From Ilumatobacteraceae bacterium (GTDB lineage: Bacteria > Actinomycetota > Acidimicrobiia > Acidimicrobiales > Ilumatobacteraceae): 64,000 nucleotides of DNA. The number at the start of each line of letters is the position of its first letter. The first letter of the stretch is position 1. The stretch is taken from positions 1 through 64,000 of the forward strand of contig JAJTFJ010000005.1 in the NCBI GenBank assembly GCA_021298435.1. The letters are read 5' to 3'. Below the pieces are notes generated by a model. That model had not been told where the DNA came from and did no database searches. It saw only the letters and a program-made list of their open reading frames with translations. This document shows positions 5,547 to 64,000 of the stretch, one piece after another. The position numbers and the translations under genes are program-made.

Positions 5547-6257
5547 TCAGCCGCCGAGATATGCGGCACGAACAGCAGGATCATCAAGCAAGAGTTGACC
5601 ACTGCCTTCCTTCACCACATGACCGGTTTCGAGAACGTATCCACGACGTGCAGTACGCAGTGCTTGCGTTGCATTTTGCTCCACCAGCAAAACTGAGATT
5701 CCCTCAGAGTTGATCTGCTTAATGATTTCAAAGATTTGCGCAATCAACATTGGCGCCAACCCCATTGAAGGCTCGTCAAGCAGAAGCAAGCGTGGACGAC
5801 TCATCAGGGCACGGCCGATTGCCAACATTTGCTGCTCGCCGCCCGACAAGGTGCCACCGAGCTGAGTGATGCGTTCCTGCAAACGTGGGAAAAGATGAAA
5901 GACATGCTCAAGGTCTGCTGCTTTTTCTGCGGCATTTCCGCCTCGGACATATGTGCCCATGTCAAGGTTCTCACGCACAGTCATTCCGGGGAAAATGCCG
6001 CGGCCTTCCGGCGCCTGACAGATGCCCAGCTTCACACGATCGTGTGGAGCCATCTTGGTGATGTCTTGCCCTTCGAACTTGATGGAACCTTGTGCAACTG
6101 TACGAACACCCGAGATGGTGCGCATCGTTGTTGTCTTGCCAGCGCCGTTGGCACCAATCAGAGTGACGATTTCGCCCTCACCCACAGTGAAAGAGATTCC
6201 CTTGATGGCCTCAATGCGACCATAGAACACATGAAGATCATTGACTTCAAGAAGCAT
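5547..6257 (-). CDS. livF: Branched-chain amino-acid ABC transporter ATP-binding protein LivF
   Basis: LLEVNDLHVFYGRIEAIKGISF, GANGAGKTT, LSGGEQQMLAIGRALMSRPRLLLLDEPSMGLAP. Confidence 0.93.
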   Translation of the reverse strand: MLLEVNDLHVFYGRIEAIKGISFTVGEGEIVTLIGANGAGKTTTMRTISGVRTVAQGSIKFEGQDITKMAPHDRVKLGICQAPEGRGIFPGMTVRENLDMGTYVRGGNAAEKAADLEHVFHLFPRLQERITQLGGTLSGGEQQMLAIGRALMSRPRLLLLDEPSMGLAPMLIAQIFEIIKQINSEGISVLLVEQNATQALRTARRGYVLETGHVVKEGSGQLLLDDPAVRAAYLGG

Positions 6258-53405: not shown

Positions 53406-54243
53406 TTAGAGGGAGGTCGTGCCCCGGTTCGTCGGGGCTCCAGCTTTTCCCTCGCCAGGGTCTCCTTCAACACGCCCAAAAACGTCTTGCCAAATCTCTG
53501 TGACGATTTCTTCAGACGTACGTACGCCACCTTCACGCACACGCACGCGTCCTGACAATGCAACCAATGCGGCATCGACGCCCACACTTGGTTGATCAAC
53601 AGTTGATTCGCGCAATTCAGCCAATGAAACTGCCACTTTTGCAAAGTCAACGGCGCCACGAACAGATGAGCCCACGCGCAAGTCAGGATGCTGACGAGTA
53701 CGACGAACAACTTCTACCGACACGACACACGCGGTCGTACACCGCGCCAGAGATTCGTGCTGTACCCACTGCATCAAAAGGGTTCATCGCAGCAACCAAG
53801 CGGAAGCCAGGCGAAGCAGCAATACGACCCAAACGTGGAACATTCAATTCAGCTTCACTCATCACAGTGATGAGAACGTTAAGTGTTTCTTCGGGAATGC
53901 GATTGATCTCTTCGACATACAACAAAGAACCATCGCGCATCGCAGAGACCAACGGGCCATCAACAAACACCGATGGGTCATAGCCCTCGTTGAGAACACG
54001 TGCGGGGTCGAAGTGACCCACCAAACGGGCAGGAGTTAACTCGGCATTGCCTTCGACAAATTCGAATCCGATACCTAAGCCTTGAGCAACGGCTCGCAAC
54101 AACGTTGACTTGCCAGTTCCCGGAGGACCTTCTAACAACACGTGACGATCTGCAGCCAGCGCCGCAAGAACTAATTCGAGTTCACGCGTGCGCCCCACCA
54201 CATGTGATGAGAGCGTGTTGCGCAGAGATGCAGCGCTAGTCAT
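53406..54243 (-). pseudogene. MoxR-type AAA+ ATPase, apparently disrupted by internal deletion plus frameshift
   Basis: Frame A (54243-53683): LLEGPPGTGKSTLLRAVAQ...VAAMNPFDAVGTARISGAVYDRVCRV then GRSCSSYSSAS*; frame B (53777-53406) continues VSVEVVRRTRQHPDLRVGSSVRGAVDFAKVAVSL, the family C-terminal motif. Confidence 0.75.
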
Positions 54244-55387
54244 TGACAATGACGCCGCGAATGTTTTCGCCGTCACGCATTGCCTGGTAACCCTCATTGA
54301 TCTGATCAAGCGTGTACCGCTTTGTAATCAGTTCATCAAGCTTGAGGTCACCAACGCGATACATGTCGAGAAGTTTTGGAATGTCTGCACGTGGGTTCAA
54401 GCTGCCAAAGATGGTTCCCTTGACTTCTTTGTTCCACATTGCCAACTGGAAGAGGTTGATATCGGCGCTTGTCTCATGCATTGGCGAGATTGCAGTGACA
54501 ACACATGTGCCACCCTTGCCAACCATTGCCATGCCCTCGCCCATCATGTTGCCGTGCAACACGCCGGGGGTCATGATGACGCGATCCGCCATTTCACCCC
54601 ATGTCAATTCATTGATGTGAGGAATTGCTTCGGCCATCGATGAGAACGTATGCGTTGCACCGAACTCCATTGCCTTCTCGCGCTTGAACTCCACAGGGTC
54701 AATTGCGATGATGCGCTTTGCGCCAGCCATGCGAGCACCTTGCACGGCGTTAATGCCTATGCCACCGATGCCAACAACGACAACAGTGTCACCAGGTTGC
54801 GTGTCGGCGCGGTTCGTGGCTGAGCCCCAACCCGTTGCAACACCACACGACACCAATGCAACTGCATCGAGTGGAAGATCTTTCTCCACCTTGATGAGTG
54901 ATGCTTCTGCCACCGTTGCGTATTCAGAGAATGTGCCCAACTTGGCCATCAGCTTCACGGGGCGACCATCTTTGACATGGTGACGGTGAGTGCCGTCCGT
55001 GATCATGCCGCCTGTGAGGGTTCCTGCGCCCAAATTGCAGAGGTTTTGACGCCCTGTGGAGCAATAACGGCACCGCCCACAAGATGGGACGAAGCTGGCT
55101 GACACATGGTCGCCGGGCTGCAATGTCGTGACGCCGGGGCCACACTTCACCACAACGCCAGCACCTTCGTGACCGCCGATGAACGGGAAGAAATCATCCA
55201 CGCCCATCATGGCGAGGAGTTCCTTCGGAGGAACCATGTCACCCGTGACGAAGTGCTCGTCTGAGTGGCACATGCCGGAGACTTTCCAGTTGACGAGAAC
55301 TTCATTCGCCTTTGGTTCGTCGACTTCAATCTCTTCGACGACCCATGGCTGATCCATTCCGTACAAAACAGCAGCACGTGATTTCAT
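54236..55387 (-). CDS. Zn-dependent alcohol dehydrogenase, NDMA-dependent (mycofactocin-associated) type
   Basis: SGMCHSDEHFVTGD, PFIGGHEGAGVV, PSCGRCRYCSTGRQNLCNLGA, VVVVGIGGIGINAVQGARMAGAKRIIAIDPVEFKREKAMEFGATH. Confidence 0.9.
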   Translation of the reverse strand: MKSRAAVLYGMDQPWVVEEIEVDEPKANEVLVNWKVSGMCHSDEHFVTGDMVPPKELLAMMGVDDFFPFIGGHEGAGVVVKCGPGVTTLQPGDHVSASFVPSCGRCRYCSTGRQNLCNLGAGTLTGGMITDGTHRHHVKDGRPVKLMAKLGTFSEYATVAEASLIKVEKDLPLDAVALVSCGVATGWGSATNRADTQPGDTVVVVGIGGIGINAVQGARMAGAKRIIAIDPVEFKREKAMEFGATHTFSSMAEAIPHINELTWGEMADRVIMTPGVLHGNMMGEGMAMVGKGGTCVVTAISPMHETSADINLFQLAMWNKEVKGTIFGSLNPRADIPKLLDMYRVGDLKLDELITKRYTLDQINEGYQAMRDGENIRGVIVND

Positions 55388-55419
55388 GATTCCCCCTGAA
55401 AGTTTTCTAAGCGGTTGAT

Positions 55420-56535
55420 TTATTCGTAAACGAGAACGCCGCGGATGTTCTTGCCATCGCGCATGTCTTGGTATCCCTGGTTGATGTCATCGAGCGTGTA
55501 GGTGTTTGTCACCAAGCCGTCGAGATCAAGTTGTCCTTCGCGGTACATGCCAAGAAGTTTTGGAATATCGGCACGTGGGTTACCCGAACCGAACAATGAA
55601 CCAACAACTTGCTTCTCCATCAATGTGAGGTCAAGAAGGCTCATGTTTGCTCCACCCATTTCAAAAGCAGGGTGAATGTTGGTGACAACAACGCGACCAC
55701 GCTTTGCAGCAAGTGCCATTGCTTCACCCATGAGCTGGCCATCGCCCACACCCATTGTCAAGATGACCTTGTTTGCCATGGTTCCCCATGTGAGCTCTTG
55801 CAAGAACGGCAATGCTTCGGCCATTGAGCTCACTGTGTGAGTTGCACCGAATTCCATTGCCTTTTCGCGCTTGAACTCGACCGGGTCGATAGCGACGATG
55901 CGCTTTGCACCAGCGAGCTTTGCGCCCTGAATTGCGTTCGCACCGATACCGCCAACGCCGACAACAACGACAGTGTCACCAGGAGCAACATCTGCTGCAT
56001 ACACAGCCGAACCCCAACCGGTGACAACACCGCAACCGAGCAAGCATGCCTTGTCGAGAGGAACATCTTTTTCGATCTTGATGCACGATGCTTCGTTCAC
56101 CACTGTGTGATGAGCGAAGGTTCCGAGCATGCACATGAGCGTGAGGTCTTTGCCTTGTGCGTGGTGACGTGAGGTGCCGTCAGAAATCTGAAGACCAAGT
56201 CCCATGAGTGCACCGAGGTCGCACAAGTTCTGATGGCCGGTGGAGCAGCTTGGGCAACGGCCACATGATGGGATGAAGCCGAACACCACGTGATCGCCAG
56301 GGGCAATCCAGCTGACGCCTTCGCCGACCTGCTCAACAACGCCGGCACCTTCGTGGCCGCCCACGATGGGCAGAGCGAATGGAAGGTCGCCTGTTGTGAG
56401 GTGCTCATCTGAGTGGCACATGCCTGATGCGGCAATCTTGACCAGAACTTCGCCTGGACCAGGAGCATCAAGCTCGATCTCTTCGACGCTCCATGGAGCA
56501 TTAACTTCCCAGAGCACTGCTGCCTTCGTCTTCAT
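55420..56535 (-). CDS. Zn-dependent alcohol dehydrogenase, NDMA-dependent (mycofactocin-associated) type, paralogue
   Basis: SGMCHSDEHLTTGDLPFALPIVGGHEGAGVV, PSCGRCPSCSTGHQNLCDLGA, same VVVVGVGGIGANAIQGAKLAGAKRIVAIDPVEFKREKAMEFGATH block. Confidence 0.9.
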   Translation of the reverse strand: MKTKAAVLWEVNAPWSVEEIELDAPGPGEVLVKIAASGMCHSDEHLTTGDLPFALPIVGGHEGAGVVEQVGEGVSWIAPGDHVVFGFIPSCGRCPSCSTGHQNLCDLGALMGLGLQISDGTSRHHAQGKDLTLMCMLGTFAHHTVVNEASCIKIEKDVPLDKACLLGCGVVTGWGSAVYAADVAPGDTVVVVGVGGIGANAIQGAKLAGAKRIVAIDPVEFKREKAMEFGATHTVSSMAEALPFLQELTWGTMANKVILTMGVGDGQLMGEAMALAAKRGRVVVTNIHPAFEMGGANMSLLDLTLMEKQVVGSLFGSGNPRADIPKLLGMYREGQLDLDGLVTNTYTLDDINQGYQDMRDGKNIRGVLVYE

Positions 56536-56555
56536 GACGTCCCCTTTGGTTCGGT

Positions 56556-56576
56556 CAGTTGGACGAGGCCCAACTG
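56556..56576. promoter_or_regulatory. Inverted repeat CAGTTGG-ACGAGGC-CCAACTG in the ADH/mftA divergent intergenic region
   Basis: Read directly; 7-bp perfect arms, 7-nt spacer. Confidence 0.45.
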
Positions 56577-56597
56577 GTGTCCTTGAAGATTACTCAC

Positions 56598-56625
56598 AGG
56601 CCCCCAACCTTCTCTAGTGGGGCCT
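56598..56625. promoter_or_regulatory. Second inverted repeat AGGCCCC-N14-GGGGCCT just upstream of mftA
   Basis: Read directly: aggccccCAACCTTCTCTAGTggggcct region; 7-bp perfect arms. Confidence 0.35.
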
Positions 56626-56646
56626 TGCGGGGGTACTCTCATAGGC

Positions 56647-56766
56647 ATGGAACAAGACACCCCACAGACCCAAGTCACCGAGCAGGTCGAAGCCACCGAA
56701 GCAGTCGTCACTGAAGAGCTCCTCGTTGAGGAAATCTCCATTGATGGCATGTGCGGTGTCTACTGA
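56647..56766 (+). CDS. mftA: Mycofactocin precursor peptide MftA (39 aa)
   Basis: Translated by hand: MEQDTPQTQVTEQVEATEAVVTEELLVEEISIDGMCGVY*; diagnostic C-terminus IDGMCGVY; directly upstream of mftB/mftC; missing from the supplied ORF track, whose listed ORFs are all 60 aa or longer. Confidence 0.97.
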   Translation: MEQDTPQTQVTEQVEATEAVVTEELLVEEISIDGMCGVY

Positions 56767-56780
56767 GCCCTCAGGCTCAG
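56763..56780 (+). promoter_or_regulatory. Hairpin spanning the mftA stop codon (mftA-mftB intercistronic)
   Basis: CTGAGCC-CTCA-GGCTCAG: perfect 7-bp stem, 4-nt loop. Confidence 0.65.
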
Positions 56781-56785
56781 CCGTT

Positions 56786-57052
56786 ATGACCCTCACGCTC
56801 GAGTCGGCGTGCGAGATGCACCCGCAGGTCGCCCTGCGACCCGAGCCCTTCGGGGCGCTCGCCTATCACTATGGCAACCGACGCCTCGTCTTTCTTCGCC
56901 ATCCCGACATTGTTCGGGTGGTACGCAATGTCTCCACGTATCCCTCACTTCGCGATGCACTCGCCGGTGAAGGAGTCGAGGAGCAGCGCTGGCCTTCCTT
57001 CGTGAAGGCACTTTCCACTCTCACCACATCGGAGATCATTCGTGTCCGCTGA
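56786..57052 (+). CDS. mftB: Mycofactocin peptide chaperone MftB
   Basis: VALRPEPFGALAYHYGNRRLVFLRHPDIVRVV; between mftA and mftC; start at internal ATG 56786. Confidence 0.95.
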   Translation: MTLTLESACEMHPQVALRPEPFGALAYHYGNRRLVFLRHPDIVRVVRNVSTYPSLRDALAGEGVEEQRWPSFVKALSTLTTSEIIRVR

Positions 57053-58157
57053 AAGCCTCGTTACCCAGATGAAGTCAGGGCTCGATGCCCCTATTTGTCT
57101 CACATGGGAACTCACCTACGCCTGCAACCTTGCATGTGTCCACTGCCTCTCAAGTTCTGGTCAGCGCGACGAGCGTGAGTTGTCAACAGAGCAGGCAAAA
57201 GCTGTTCTTGATGAACTGCGTGACTTGCAGGTGTTCTACATCAACATCGGTGGCGGCGAGCCAATGGTGCGTCGTGACTTCTTTGAAATTCTCGAACACT
57301 CCATCTCCAATGGCATCGGAGTGAAGTTCTCCACCAACGGTGCATTCATCGACAAGAAAAATGCAGAGCGTCTTGCCACGATGGACTACCTCGACATTCA
57401 AATCAGTCTCGATGGAACCACCGCAGAGGTCAACGATGCAGTGCGCGGCGAAGGCTCATACGCCACAGCAATTACTGCAATGGAAAATCTTCGCGATGCA
57501 GGCTTTGGTCAATTCAAAATCTCTGTTGTTGTGACACGTCACAACGTTGATCAACTCGATGAGTTCAAAGCACTCGCAGATTCGTTTGGTGCACAACTTC
57601 GAATTACGCGTCTTCGTCCTGCCGGCCGCGGCGCCGACACATGGAATGAATTGCACCCCACCAACGCACAACAGCGTCAGATTTACGACTGGCTGTTGGC
57701 GCATGGAGAAAACGTTCTTACTGGTGACTCCTTCTTCCACCTAAATGCATTTGGTGAATCACTCCCCGGCCTCAACATGTGTGGAGCAGGTCGCGTGGTG
57801 TGTCTCATCGATCCATTAGGTGATGTGTATGCATGCCCGTTCGTGATTCATGAAGACTTCAAAGCAGGAAATGTTTTAGACGATGGCGGATTCACCAAGG
57901 TGTGGCGCGGATCTGATTTGTTCCTCGAACTTCGTGAACCACAAAGTGCCGGTGCATGTGCATCGTGCGGTGCCTTTGATGCATGTCAAGGCGGATGCAT
58001 GGCTGCCAAGTTCTTCACAGGCATTCCACTCGATGGCCCCGACCCAGAATGTGTCGGCGGAGACGGAGAGAAGTTGCTGGGGGCTGTTCCCGTTGCACTT
58101 CTTCCACGTCCTTCTATGGACCACTCAAAGCCAGCCCGCATCAAGGTCAACTCATGA
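57042..58157 (+). CDS. mftC: Mycofactocin radical SAM maturase MftC
   Basis: CNLACVHC radical SAM motif, INIGGGEPMVRRDFFEI, C-terminal SPASM-like cysteines (CGAGRVVCLIDPLGDVYACPF; CASCGAFDACQGGCMAAK). Confidence 0.96.
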   Translation: MSAESLVTQMKSGLDAPICLTWELTYACNLACVHCLSSSGQRDERELSTEQAKAVLDELRDLQVFYINIGGGEPMVRRDFFEILEHSISNGIGVKFSTNGAFIDKKNAERLATMDYLDIQISLDGTTAEVNDAVRGEGSYATAITAMENLRDAGFGQFKISVVVTRHNVDQLDEFKALADSFGAQLRITRLRPAGRGADTWNELHPTNAQQRQIYDWLLAHGENVLTGDSFFHLNAFGESLPGLNMCGAGRVVCLIDPLGDVYACPFVIHEDFKAGNVLDDGGFTKVWRGSDLFLELREPQSAGACASCGAFDACQGGCMAAKFFTGIPLDGPDPECVGGDGEKLLGAVPVALLPRPSMDHSKPARIKVNS

Positions 58158-58741
58158 GTCCAGTCGTTGTTGTTCTTGCAGCAATTGCGTCGTACTTCGT
58201 CGGCACCATTCCCAGCGCCATTGTTGTTGCTCGCACCAAAGGCGTCGACATCACAACATTCGGCTCAGGCAACCCCGGTGCAAGCAACGTTGCACGTGCT
58301 TTGGGCTGGAAATACGGCTCCATTGTTTTCGCAATTGATGCCGCAAAGGGAGCCATTCCTGCTGCCATCTTCTTAGGCGATCGCCCCATTGCTTACGTGT
58401 GCGGAGCTTTTGCAATTCTCGGACACCTCTTCCCCATCACTCGTAAATTCAAAGGCGGCAAGGGTGTTGCCACAGGCGCTGGCCTGTTGTTGCCATTGCA
58501 TCCACTCTTCATGATCATCTGTGCCATCACATGGATCTCACTGATGAAGCTCACGAAGAAGGCTTCCATCGCATCCATCGTCGTTGTGCCACTGCCCATC
58601 ATCATGATTGCGCTATCGAAGAAGCCGACATGGGAAGTATTCGCTTTTGTCGGGATCGCTCTTCTCATTGAAGTTCGACATGTTTCGAACATCAAGCGCC
58701 TTTTGTCAGGTAGCGAGAACACTCTCGACGTCAAGAAGTAG
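58154..58741 (+). CDS. plsY: Glycerol-3-phosphate acyltransferase PlsY
   Basis: YFVGTIPSAIVVAR, FGSGNPGASNVARALGWKYG, LGHLFPITRKFKGGKGVATGAG; ATGA overlap with mftC; the ORF-track start (57983) is too early. Confidence 0.9.
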   Translation: MSPVVVVLAAIASYFVGTIPSAIVVARTKGVDITTFGSGNPGASNVARALGWKYGSIVFAIDAAKGAIPAAIFLGDRPIAYVCGAFAILGHLFPITRKFKGGKGVATGAGLLLPLHPLFMIICAITWISLMKLTKKASIASIVVVPLPIIMIALSKKPTWEVFAFVGIALLIEVRHVSNIKRLLSGSENTLDVKK

Positions 58742-58744
58742 AGA

Positions 58745-59446
58745 TTGTTCTCAATGGGCTCTGCGACATCTGCAGAAATCGCCGAGTCGCGGCCAATTCT
58801 TCTTCTTCCCCTCGGTGCATGGGAACAACACGGCCCGCATCTGCCGCTTGATACCGACACCATGATCATCACTCGTGTGATCGCTGACGTCCTACGTCAC
58901 GAAGACCTCCGTACTGTCAATGTGATGTCGGCGCCAGCAATCTCCATCACTGCAAGCGATGAGCACCATGGTTTCCCTGGCACTCTCAGTACCGGCACAC
59001 AGGCATTAAAAGATTCTGTTGTTGCTATTTGCCGATCTGCATCGTGGGCAACGGGCGTGTGCATCGCGAATGGGCACGGCGGCAATGCAGATGCATTGGC
59101 AGCAATCACCTCTGCACTTGCATACGAAAGCATCACACACAGCGTGTGGTCTCTTCCTTCCTATAGCGGCGGCGACATGCACGCAGGCCACACCGAGACG
59201 TCTCTTTTGTTACACATCGCACCCAATGAAGTTCGCAGCAATGTGATTGCTCGCGGAGCAACCCATGATGCTGGTCTTATCGACGCCATGCGTGATGGTG
59301 GGGTGCAAGCAGTGTCTGAAAACGGAATCATTGGCGATGCAAGCACTGCAACTGCTTCTCACGGGAAAGCTGTCCTCGATTTGTACACCAACTCTCTTCG
59401 TGCACATGTACTTGACTGCCACCGTGAGTGGACAACAAAGAAATGA
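58745..59446 (+). CDS. mftE: Mycofactocin precursor peptidase MftE (creatininase family)
   Basis: ILLLPLGAWEQHGPHLPLDTDTMI, IANGHGGNADAL, GDMHAGHTETSLLL; TTG 58745 or ATG 58754 start. Confidence 0.93.
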   Translation: MFSMGSATSAEIAESRPILLLPLGAWEQHGPHLPLDTDTMIITRVIADVLRHEDLRTVNVMSAPAISITASDEHHGFPGTLSTGTQALKDSVVAICRSASWATGVCIANGHGGNADALAAITSALAYESITHSVWSLPSYSGGDMHAGHTETSLLLHIAPNEVRSNVIARGATHDAGLIDAMRDGGVQAVSENGIIGDASTATASHGKAVLDLYTNSLRAHVLDCHREWTTKK

Positions 59447-60822
59447 ACACATCAGGTCTCACAACTGATGATCAATGGTTTCGGTCCGAGAATGGATCAG
59501 GACTCCTTGCGGGATCACCACTGACTTATTTCTCAGTCACTGATGCTGGTCAAAAGATTCTTGATGCAATCGAAAACAACAAACCTCTTCCCGTTAATCA
59601 CGCAGCTCTGACACAACGACTCCTCGCCAAAGGGGCAGTTCACCCGGCGTATGACACACCTGGGAACGCTGCGGATCTCACAGTTGTTATCCCCTCATAT
59701 GTTTCCGAGACAACACACCTAGAACGCCTGCAAACATTGGTGGATTCGCTCGCCGGACTGCACCTCATTGTCGTTGATGACTGTTCACCAATTGGCATTG
59801 TTCTGAGTGGCGCCGAGGTTATTCGGCTACCGACAAACCAAGGTCCCGCAACTGCACGGAACGCTGGGCTCAATGCAGTCACCACTGCGTATGTCGCTTT
59901 CGTCGACGACGACACATCAGTAACTGCTCACCAACTTCTCGCTCTGACTTCTCACTTCACCGACATGAGTGTCGATGTTGTCGCACCACGGGTTGCGAGC
60001 ACATCTGGAGAGTCTCTTGTTGCCGAGTACGAAACCTTTCACTCTCCCTTAGATCTCGGTCTCCTTCCTTCCGTGGTGCGACCACTCTCACGTGTCTCGT
60101 ATGTTCCAGCTGCCGTGCTCGTCGCTCGCACCCACGCAGTGAAAGAGATGCATGCATTCGATACATCAATGCGACTCGGCGAAGACGTTGACCTCATTTG
60201 GCGAATAGTCGAAGAGGGCAGAACCGTCCGATACGACCCAACAGTGATTTGTCACCACGCGCCTCGCATGACAATACGTGCGTTACTGAAACAACGATTC
60301 GGCTACGGACGCAGCGCAGCATCACTTGATAGAAAACATCCGTTCACTGCAGCGCCACTGCGTGCCAACATCGTGATGCTGATTCCAGCCATTGCACTTC
60401 TTAGTGGATATGTCTTTGTCGCAGCCGCTCTCGTGCCTCTCATGCTTGTGTGGTTCTCGATCACGTTGCGTCAGACCAAAATCCCACTCACAACAAGAGC
60501 GAAACTGGCGATGACAGGATGGTTCTCCACGGTGCGACTCCTGACTTCTGCGATTATGCGAGTCTGGTGGCCGCCAGTACTTCTCATCGGCCAATTCTCA
60601 CTGCGAGTCGGAGCAGTCTTTGTCTTCAGTGCTTTCGTGCCTGCGATGTACGGACTCATGCGCAATAAACCGCGACATACCGTCGGGTATATCACTCTTC
60701 GTATTCTTGACCCCATGGCATATGGCGTCGGCGTGTGGGCTGGCGTGATTCGAGACCGCAACCTCAGATGTTTATTACCGGTAGTCACTCGTAGTTCAAT
60801 CCGACTACGGTCAAAGGTGTGA
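59443..60822 (+). CDS. mftF: Mycofactocin glycosyltransferase MftF (GT2)
   Basis: LLAGSPLTYFSVTDAGQKILDAI, LTVVIPSY, LIVVDDCSP, LPTNQGPATARNAGL, AFVDDDTSV, LGEDVDLIWRIVEEG; ATGA overlap with mftE. Confidence 0.93.
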   Translation: MNTSGLTTDDQWFRSENGSGLLAGSPLTYFSVTDAGQKILDAIENNKPLPVNHAALTQRLLAKGAVHPAYDTPGNAADLTVVIPSYVSETTHLERLQTLVDSLAGLHLIVVDDCSPIGIVLSGAEVIRLPTNQGPATARNAGLNAVTTAYVAFVDDDTSVTAHQLLALTSHFTDMSVDVVAPRVASTSGESLVAEYETFHSPLDLGLLPSVVRPLSRVSYVPAAVLVARTHAVKEMHAFDTSMRLGEDVDLIWRIVEEGRTVRYDPTVICHHAPRMTIRALLKQRFGYGRSAASLDRKHPFTAAPLRANIVMLIPAIALLSGYVFVAAALVPLMLVWFSITLRQTKIPLTTRAKLAMTGWFSTVRLLTSAIMRVWWPPVLLIGQFSLRVGAVFVFSAFVPAMYGLMRNKPRHTVGYITLRILDPMAYGVGVWAGVIRDRNLRCLLPVVTRSSIRLRSKV

Positions 60823-61775
60823 CGATTCGACTTGCAGTGAATGAGCCCCGGTGGCTCGCACATGTTCAAGGGGTTGCCAAGGCAATGCCAGGCCTCGTTC
60901 CGGTCGTCAAGGGCAACGGATACGGGTTTCGTCGTTGGAATCTCATGCCACTCGCAGGTCAACTCAGTAACGAAGTGGCCGTCGGAACCGTGTTCGAAGC
61001 TCGAGATATTCCGAGCAACGTGACTCCGATTGTTCTCACGCCCACACTCACCGCCCCACCAAATAACTTGCCACTAAATACGGTGATGACTATTAGTTCG
61101 CCTCATCATGTGATTGCACTGAACTCTGCTGGTTGGAGTGGTGAAGTCATTGTGAAGCTTCAGTCTTCAGCGATGCGCTACGGCGTTGAGAGGGCCATGT
61201 TGCAATCGTTGTTGTCAGACATTGAGAATGCGCGACTCACAGTTCGTGGTTATGCAATTCATCCACCGCTTGACGGCGACGCCGCGTTGCATCTCAAAGA
61301 TGTCACATCTTGGCTTGATGTTCTTGATGCTCGACTTCCGATTTATGTCAGCCATCTTGATAGTGCCGCATATGAGAAATTGCGGACGACTCATCCTGAT
61401 CGAGACTTTCGCATTCGTCTTGGAACTTCGCTATGGCATGGCGATAAGTCAATGATGCAGCTCTCTGCGGACATTGTTGATCATCATCCGATTGAAGCTG
61501 GCATGCGCGCTGGTTATCGCCAAGTCAAGGTTGACGGACCAGGAGAAATCGTTCTCGTCGGATGCGGAACAGCGCATGGTGTCACGCTTCTCCCAGATGG
61601 TCGCAGTCCGTTCCACTATCAACGCCAGCGTCTCAATGTGTTGGAACCACCACACATGCACACATCAATGTTGATTGTTTCTAGAGGACGCCCTATTCCC
61701 AGCATTGGTGAATGGATTGATGTTCAACAACCGATGACACGCGTGCAAGTTGATCTCTTGCAGTGGATTAAGTAA
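60819..61775 (+). CDS. Alanine-racemase-like PLP (fold type III) protein
   Basis: LVPVVKGNGYGF (PLP Lys motif), VIVKLQSSAMRYG, IRLGTSLWHGDK; GTG start overlapping the mftF stop by 4 nt. Confidence 0.8.
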   Translation: MTIRLAVNEPRWLAHVQGVAKAMPGLVPVVKGNGYGFRRWNLMPLAGQLSNEVAVGTVFEARDIPSNVTPIVLTPTLTAPPNNLPLNTVMTISSPHHVIALNSAGWSGEVIVKLQSSAMRYGVERAMLQSLLSDIENARLTVRGYAIHPPLDGDAALHLKDVTSWLDVLDARLPIYVSHLDSAAYEKLRTTHPDRDFRIRLGTSLWHGDKSMMQLSADIVDHHPIEAGMRAGYRQVKVDGPGEIVLVGCGTAHGVTLLPDGRSPFHYQRQRLNVLEPPHMHTSMLIVSRGRPIPSIGEWIDVQQPMTRVQVDLLQWIK

Positions 61776-61781
61776 CTACTT

Positions 61782-62675
61782 CTATACGTGAGAAGACACG
61801 GCGCGATTTAAGCCGCGCCAGCCGACAGCAGATGCGCCGACTAGTGGTCCCTCATCAGCCAGACGCGCTGGAACAATGCGAGCATTCTTAGAGAACTCAA
61901 GTCCGCACAACTCATCAAGAGTTTTCTGAGCAGAGTTGAAAAACGTTGCACCAAATCCAAGTGCGACACTTCCGCCAACACAGACAAGTTTGAGATCAAG
62001 AAGGTTGCAGACAGAAGCAACACCGCGTCCGACCATGCGACCTGTGCGCACCATTGTCTCGTAGGTGGGCTGAGATGGGGGTCGACCAGTAATTGCCTCG
62101 ATGGCGGGTCCCGAGGCCTCTGCTTCCAGGCAGCCACGGCCTCCGCAGGTACACCGGCGCCCATTGGGCTCCACAATCACATGGCCCACATGGCCTGCAT
62201 TGCCGCTTTCGCCGTCCAAAAGCTGCCCATTGAGCACGATTCCGCCGCCCACACCGGTGGAAACGACCATGGCCATGAAGTTGTCGACGCCCTTGGCTGC
62301 ACCCAACCAACCTTCGGCGAGGGCCAGGGCCTTGGCGTCACCATCTCCAAAGACAGGAAGGCCTGTACTGAATGCAAGCTGATCACGAAGAGGAAAATTC
62401 TTCCACTGCGGAATATTGAGTGGAGACACTGTTTCAACATTGCGAGTAATCGGACCGGCAGAACCCACCCCAACAACAGATGGAGTCGCGCCGTGATGAT
62501 CGCGCGCCCTCACAAGTTGTGACTGAACTGCCTTATCAAGATCATCAAACAGTTCTTCCGCAGTCGCTGTGTGATCAACAGGAACATTGAGACGATCGAC
62601 AAGTTCTCCGGCACGAGTCACCAAACCGACGGAGAACTTCGTTGCTCCGATGTCGATTGCGAGTGCCAAATCCAT
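61782..62675 (-). CDS. ROK family glucokinase-like sugar kinase
   Basis: ALAIDIGATKFSVGLV, VVSTGVGGGIVLNGQLLDGESGNAGHVGHVIVEPNGRRCTCGGRGCLEAEASG. Confidence 0.9.
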   Translation of the reverse strand: MDLALAIDIGATKFSVGLVTRAGELVDRLNVPVDHTATAEELFDDLDKAVQSQLVRARDHHGATPSVVGVGSAGPITRNVETVSPLNIPQWKNFPLRDQLAFSTGLPVFGDGDAKALALAEGWLGAAKGVDNFMAMVVSTGVGGGIVLNGQLLDGESGNAGHVGHVIVEPNGRRCTCGGRGCLEAEASGPAIEAITGRPPSQPTYETMVRTGRMVGRGVASVCNLLDLKLVCVGGSVALGFGATFFNSAQKTLDELCGLEFSKNARIVPARLADEGPLVGASAVGWRGLNRAVSSHV

Positions 62676-62775
62676 AAGTCGTCTATTCTCGCAAAAACAA
62701 TTAATTTCCAAACGAAAAACCGACAAACTTTTCTACGAAGTACCTAAGTCTTCGATTGTTTTCTACGATTACAGC

Positions 62776-63438
62776 GTGAAATCTTCATGGGACGACATTC
62801 TTCAGAATGAATTCATTAGTCCCTATTTTTTATCAATGACTCAGTTTCTTGATGAGGAGCGCTCCGAACATCACGTGTTTCCACCACAAGAAAAAGTCTT
62901 TGCCTCGCTCGACGCAACATCTTTGCGTGACACCAAAGTCGTCATTCTTGGACAAGACCCGTATCACGGTGACGGACAAGCTGATGGACTCGCCTTCTCA
63001 GTTTCAGAAGGAACACCGATTCCCCCATCACTGCGCAACATTTTGAAAGAACTACACGACGACATAGGTGCTGCAATTCCTTCTCATGGCAACCTCATCT
63101 CATGGGCACAACAAGGAGTGCTCTTGCTCAACACAACTCTCACTGTGAGGGAAGGAGAAGCCGGATCTCATTACGGACGCGGGTGGGAGACTTTGACTGA
63201 TGTCATCATCAGAAAAATCAATGAAAAGCCTGATTCTGTTGTCTTTCTCCTCTGGGGCGCACATGCGCGAAAGAAGAAATCCCTCATCACCCAGCCCCAT
63301 CACGTGGTGATTGAAGGGGTCCATCCCTCCCCCTTGTCTGCCTATCGAGGATTCTTTGGGAGCAAGCCGTTTTCACGGGTCAACACTGCATTAGAACAAG
63401 TAGGCCACCGCCCCATTGATTGGGCAATCCCCTCGTGA
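62776..63438 (+). CDS. ung: Uracil-DNA glycosylase, family 1
   Basis: VVILGQDPYHGDGQADGLAFSV, GVLLLNTTLTVREGEAGSHYGRGWE, VHPSPLSAYRGFFGSKPFSRVN; GTG start 62776. Confidence 0.94.
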   Translation: MKSSWDDILQNEFISPYFLSMTQFLDEERSEHHVFPPQEKVFASLDATSLRDTKVVILGQDPYHGDGQADGLAFSVSEGTPIPPSLRNILKELHDDIGAAIPSHGNLISWAQQGVLLLNTTLTVREGEAGSHYGRGWETLTDVIIRKINEKPDSVVFLLWGAHARKKKSLITQPHHVVIEGVHPSPLSAYRGFFGSKPFSRVNTALEQVGHRPIDWAIPS

Positions 63439-63487
63439 ACAATCTCTTCGCATCTGAATAGAGCACACTTTCACTGCCTAACAAATT

Positions 63488-63517
63488 CATGGGTTGCTGT
63501 GGGACAATCAACCCATG
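63488..63517. promoter_or_regulatory. Inverted repeat CATGGGTTG-N12-CAACCCATG overlapping the tetR start codon
   Basis: Read directly; perfect 9-bp arms, 12-nt spacer. Confidence 0.55.
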
Positions 63518-64000
63518 GCAATAGCTAGTCGGCAATCGGAGAAGTCTCGACAGACAGATCTCAAGGTTGCACAGAGTGCAGCTAAAGCAGTGCGGACTGT
63601 TGGAGTCGACCAGATGGCACTCACGCGTGTTGCTGCCGATGCAGGATTCTCCAGTGGTGCCATCTACGCGCGATGCGATGATCGGTCTGAACTTGTTGTC
63701 CTTGCGTGGGAGAAAAGTTTTTGGCCAATGTTGTCAGAGATCTTGTCGCTTCTTATCGAATCTGTTCTCTCACGATCCACCGTGAATTCAGAACAGATCA
63801 GAGAATTGTTCGAGCGTGCAAGTGGTGAGGATGCAATTCCCGATCTGGGAAGTGCGATGGAAGTTATTGTGGCCTCTCGTCGCGATGAGGTCATCGCCGA
63901 AGTTGTTCAACGTGACATCAACGGGCTGATGGAAGACCACGGCGTGGGTCCCTCTACAGATGGAGCAGATCGACAAGCTGTTGTCGGAGCCATCTGCACA
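63515..64000 (+). CDS. TetR-family transcriptional regulator (partial, runs off window)
   Basis: Hand translation MAIASRQSEKSRQTDLKVAQSAAKAVRTVGVDQMALTRVAADAGFSSGAIYARCDDRSELVVLAWEKSF...: TetR HTH; open to the last base, hence absent from the ORF track. Confidence 0.8.
   Translation, partial: MAIASRQSEKSRQTDLKVAQSAAKAVRTVGVDQMALTRVAADAGFSSGAIYARCDDRSELVVLAWEKSFWPMLSEILSLLIESVLSRSTVNSEQIRELFERASGEDAIPDLGSAMEVIVASRRDEVIAEVVQRDINGLMEDHGVGPSTDGADRQAVVGAICT

Follow-up and report, generated by a model that had tools for sequence, protein, structure and literature searches.

The locus raises the question of whether a frame of only 39 amino acids, hidden from any list of open reading frames cut at 60 residues, encodes the peptide from which the known redox cofactor mycofactocin is made. 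Within the window, by which we mean the whole stretch of 64,000 nucleotides analysed here, positions 56647–56766 of the forward strand translate to MEQDTPQTQVTEQVEATEAVVTEELLVEEISIDGMCGVY, letter for letter the peptide given in an earlier note on this DNA, which had named the gene mftA. The search proposed there with TIGR03969, the NCBIfam model of the mycofactocin precursor MftA, returned 50.4 bits for the 39-aa frame (cut-off 25, E 1.4e-13), and the Pfam model PF23709 scored 48.5 bits (cut-off 27, E 9.7e-13). In the whole genome, this frame was the sole match to TIGR03969 (E 6.7e-13), and none of 14 control genomes contained one. The peptide ends in SIDGMCGVY followed by the stop codon, placing Val-Tyr at its extreme C terminus; this tail with its stop occurs once in the six frames of the window and in 0 of 60 simulated windows. 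A weak similarity to the variant MftA model NF040489 (19.5 bits) stays below its cut-off of 30, and the peptide is therefore assigned to the standard type.

The reason why the gene is easily overlooked lies in its length. At a 60-aa threshold the frame is indeed unlisted, as the earlier note had argued, while lowering the threshold to 30 aa brings up a GTG-started version of 49 aa (56617–56766); the ATG at 56647 is the start kept among close relatives. The same note was also right about the frame at 56726, a TTG-started ORF of 108 aa (56726–57052) which overlaps the 3′ end of mftA and is over-extended: the TIGR03967 match begins at residue 7 (profile position 4) of the frame opened by ATG 56786 and extends almost to the end of that frame, so that MftB starts at 56786. 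One part of the signature named in that note needs correcting: the acidic leader does not belong to it, as what marks the family is the C-terminal stretch of 23 residues, and the leader varies.

Next, we looked at the conservation of the gene among relatives. Counting the genome of the window itself, 36 genomes out of 61 searched carry MftA above cut-off, the order mftA-mftB-mftC is kept across the family loci, and mftA precedes mftB-mftC in nearly all relative loci covering that stretch. The last eight residues are unchanged in 45 distinct relatives, and among the corresponding codons the first, second and third positions vary in 0, 0 and 7 of 8 cases. Variation restricted to third positions shows that selection acts on the protein. 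An identical 39-aa peptide is present in a separately deposited metagenome-assembled contig (WLHL01000076.1, locus L095), which makes a sequencing error in the frame unlikely. Taken together, the two curated models, the place directly before mftB and mftC and the conservation across relatives make it almost certain that the frame is a genuine and ordinary mftA. That the ORF is short and missing from the long-ORF list might suggest a frame arisen by chance or the remnant of a decayed mftA, but such a reading is exceedingly improbable given model scores of about twice the cut-offs, the identical peptide in another MAG, an invariant core with synonymous changes only, and intact partner genes. Besides that, short tandem repeats were observed in some MftA leaders, namely TDHDV TDHDV ... 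and VGDM VGDM (L108 around 5612–5728; L137 around 5600–5715), which indicates that the leader is little constrained.

In all these features, namely a C-terminal 23-residue region ending in IDGMCGVY, a place before mftB-mftC, a short variable leader and a tendency to be missed by gene callers, the gene resembles the MftA family of TIGR03969/PF23709. Haft 2011 defined this family, recovered unannotated copies by six-frame search and listed M. tuberculosis mftA as a "missed gene call" (PMC3023750). The unannotated mftA reported here is thus no discovery and adds one more genome to that observation.

Table 1 Predicted features of the mycofactocin locus in the window.
Feature	Coordinates	Strand	Support
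Second NDMA-dependent alcohol dehydrogenase	54236..55387	-	TIGR03989, 559 bits (cut-off 440)
NDMA-dependent alcohol dehydrogenase (nicotinoprotein), divergent from mftA	55420..56535	-	TIGR03989, 563.2 bits (cut-off 440)
Predicted -10 element TACTCT	56634..56639	+	7 nt before mftA ATG; TANNNT comparison of relatives
mftA, mycofactocin precursor peptide, 39 aa, core C-terminal Val-Tyr	56647..56766	+	TIGR03969, PF23709, conserved start codon
mftB, peptide chaperone for MftC	56786..57052	+	TIGR03967, 95.2 bits (cut-off 33)
mftC, radical SAM/SPASM maturase	57042..58157	+	TIGR03962, 623.3 bits (cut-off 265)
plsY, glycerol-3-phosphate acyltransferase	58154..58741	+	TIGR00023, 145.9 bits (cut-off 137.2)
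mftE, creatininase-type peptidase	58745..59446	+	TIGR03964, 215.8 bits (cut-off 172)
mftF, glycosyltransferase	59428..60822	+	TIGR03965, 314.8 bits (cut-off 280)
Alanine-racemase-like protein, PLP fold type III, divergent	60819..61775	+	PF01168, 41.3 bits

The surroundings of mftA provide the partner genes in one neighbourhood, where MftA, B, C, E and F as well as two NDMA-dependent alcohol dehydrogenases pass their curated cut-offs (Table 1). From mftB onward, neighbouring genes overlap or almost touch in an operon-like manner; the start of mftE is ambiguous between TTG 58745 and ATG 58754. No Rfam family was found in 54000–64000, and no tRNA in the window. Sequence, gene order and family membership are read directly from this DNA; the chemistry we infer from homology to the mycofactocin pathway as published (PMC11778925; PMC3023750). 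MftB would bind the 39-aa MftA and present it to MftC, which would decarboxylate and cyclise the C-terminal Val-Tyr. MftE would release the cyclised dipeptide (AHDP), an MftD presumably encoded elsewhere in the genome would deaminate it to redox-active premycofactocin, and MftF would add glucose. The resulting mycofactocin would most likely accept electrons from the two neighbouring dehydrogenases, whose nicotinoprotein class (TIGR03989) was proposed as mycofactocin partners by Haft 2011 (PMC3023750).

One component of this pathway, MftD, was not found above cut-off in this assembly (best score 254.6 versus 470.85 bits), and its standard slot in the order mftABCDEF is occupied by plsY. In principle, this could point to a truncated or differently finished cofactor, with the pathway stopping at AHDP, or to deamination by another enzyme, either an LldD-like protein (contig C53) or the alanine-racemase-like protein with whose gene the operon ends. 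However, the MftD model scores above cut-off in 26 of the 61 genomes searched, most congeners among them, and in this genus mftD is unlinked to mftABC: mftC and mftD lie about 90 kb apart in both G001 (C13:108515 and C13:18637) and G003 (C3:76303 and C3:164280), the latter a close relative with an MftC 98% identical. The mftD of G001 (L066, 5617–6855) adjoins genes for a HAD phosphatase and a zinc ABC transporter. The entire 9-kb mftD neighbourhood of G003 lacks a counterpart in the present assembly, whose 56 contigs total 1.53 Mb at 76.5% completeness; both points argue for an assembly gap. As for the substitutes, the LldD-like protein co-occurs with true MftD in many congeners, and a genome without mft genes also has the alanine-racemase-like gene in its plsY-dedA block. 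A truncated or differently finished cofactor is therefore very improbable, and the MftD-less pathway was dropped in view of the congeners with unlinked mftD and the wholly missing neighbourhood. The comparison points to an assembly gap as the simplest reading; that the strain possesses MftD is likewise an expectation from homology.

A similar question concerns plsY and the alanine-racemase-like gene, which might be newly recognised components of the mycofactocin pathway. In almost every family genome checked, both lie within the cluster or next to it, and plsY overlaps the mftC stop codon. On the other hand, plsY is the sole copy found in this assembly, as in nearly all congeners, and its lipid role would be required anyway; since it is the only copy, plsY is probably a housekeeping gene inside the operon. 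More telling for both genes is G034, a genome of the same family (91% complete) with no mftA or mftC above cut-off. Here, valS, an LCP gene, plsY, dedA and the alanine-racemase-like gene form an uninterrupted run (L177, G034:C46, 1379–7449), with no mft or NDMA-dependent dehydrogenase genes in between. In other relatives, dedA is located between plsY and mftE. It follows that the mft genes are interspersed among members of a block that can stand without them. A role of the two genes in the pathway is very unlikely, and both plsY as a pathway part and the alanine-racemase-like protein as a deaminase were dropped, as the genes persist in one block in this mft-less genome. The alanine-racemase-like protein is a family-specific neighbour and probably stands outside the pathway.

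As a next step, we compared the region upstream of mftA among relatives. Of 63 distinct relatives, 47 have a TANNNT hexamer starting 12–14 nt ahead of the mftA start codon, against 0–5 for the other three-base bins, a count over sequences of shared ancestry that does not represent 63 independent events. A −10 element of a leaderless transcript would be expected at this distance, which suggests, together with homology, that the mftA mRNA is leaderless in the Ilumatobacteraceae-type lineage. Most relatives without the hexamer belong to Mycolicibacterium, Pseudonocardia, Rhodococcus and similar actinobacteria outside this lineage, and in many of these a Shine-Dalgarno-like AGGAG precedes mftA. 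Set against the MftA family of TIGR03969/PF23709, the start signal of this lineage looks leaderless and the peptide shows no difference. A standard sigma-70 scan found no promoter, and the −10 signal emerged solely from the comparison of relatives. Further upstream, the block CTTCTCTAGTGGGG (56609–56622) is conserved in many close relatives and may belong to a regulatory stretch that mftA shares with the divergent dehydrogenase.

The cluster resembles the mycobacterial mftRABCDEFG cluster in MftA, B, C, E, F and the NDMA-dependent dehydrogenases. It deviates from it in the unlinked mftD, the position of plsY between mftC and mftE, the dehydrogenases directly divergent from mftA, and in MftR (TIGR03968) and MftG (TIGR03970), neither of which was found above cut-off in eight family genomes, of which five reach 90% completeness or more. 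About a quarter of genomes with mftC are without MftG (PMC11778925), and its lack here thus falls within known variation. It is conceivable, albeit somewhat doubtful, that Ilumatobacteraceae differ from mycobacteria in how mycofactocin is controlled and reoxidised, with a leaderless mftA mRNA not under the control of MftR, MftD supplied from a separate locus, cofactor reoxidation by a route other than MftG, and a cassette around plsY-dedA that is present or absent as a unit.

Altogether, mftA adds a routine case to a well-described family, and the value of its identification lies in the correct annotation of a short gene. The unlinked mftD, the lack of MftR and MftG, the conserved leaderless-type start and the mft-less relative with the same neighbours joined describe how mycofactocin genes are organised in streamlined freshwater Acidimicrobiia; these surrounding features are details of a lineage and not a new kind of system. 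Among the open-access papers searched, none mentions mycofactocin in connection with Ilumatobacter or Acidimicrobiia. The host is an uncultured actinobacterium from fresh water, of Ilumatobacteraceae type. Its nearest named records carry the labels Actinomycetota, Acidimicrobiaceae or Ilumatobacteraceae; all are metagenome assemblies, and the isolate names of several point to lakes and reservoirs. Two further MAG contigs, CAMCZG010000032.1 and CAMDER010000032.1 (L116, L137), are labelled Bifidobacterium breve and encode an MftC 80–83% identical to that of this Acidimicrobiia-type lineage; judging by these sequences, the two labels look wrong.
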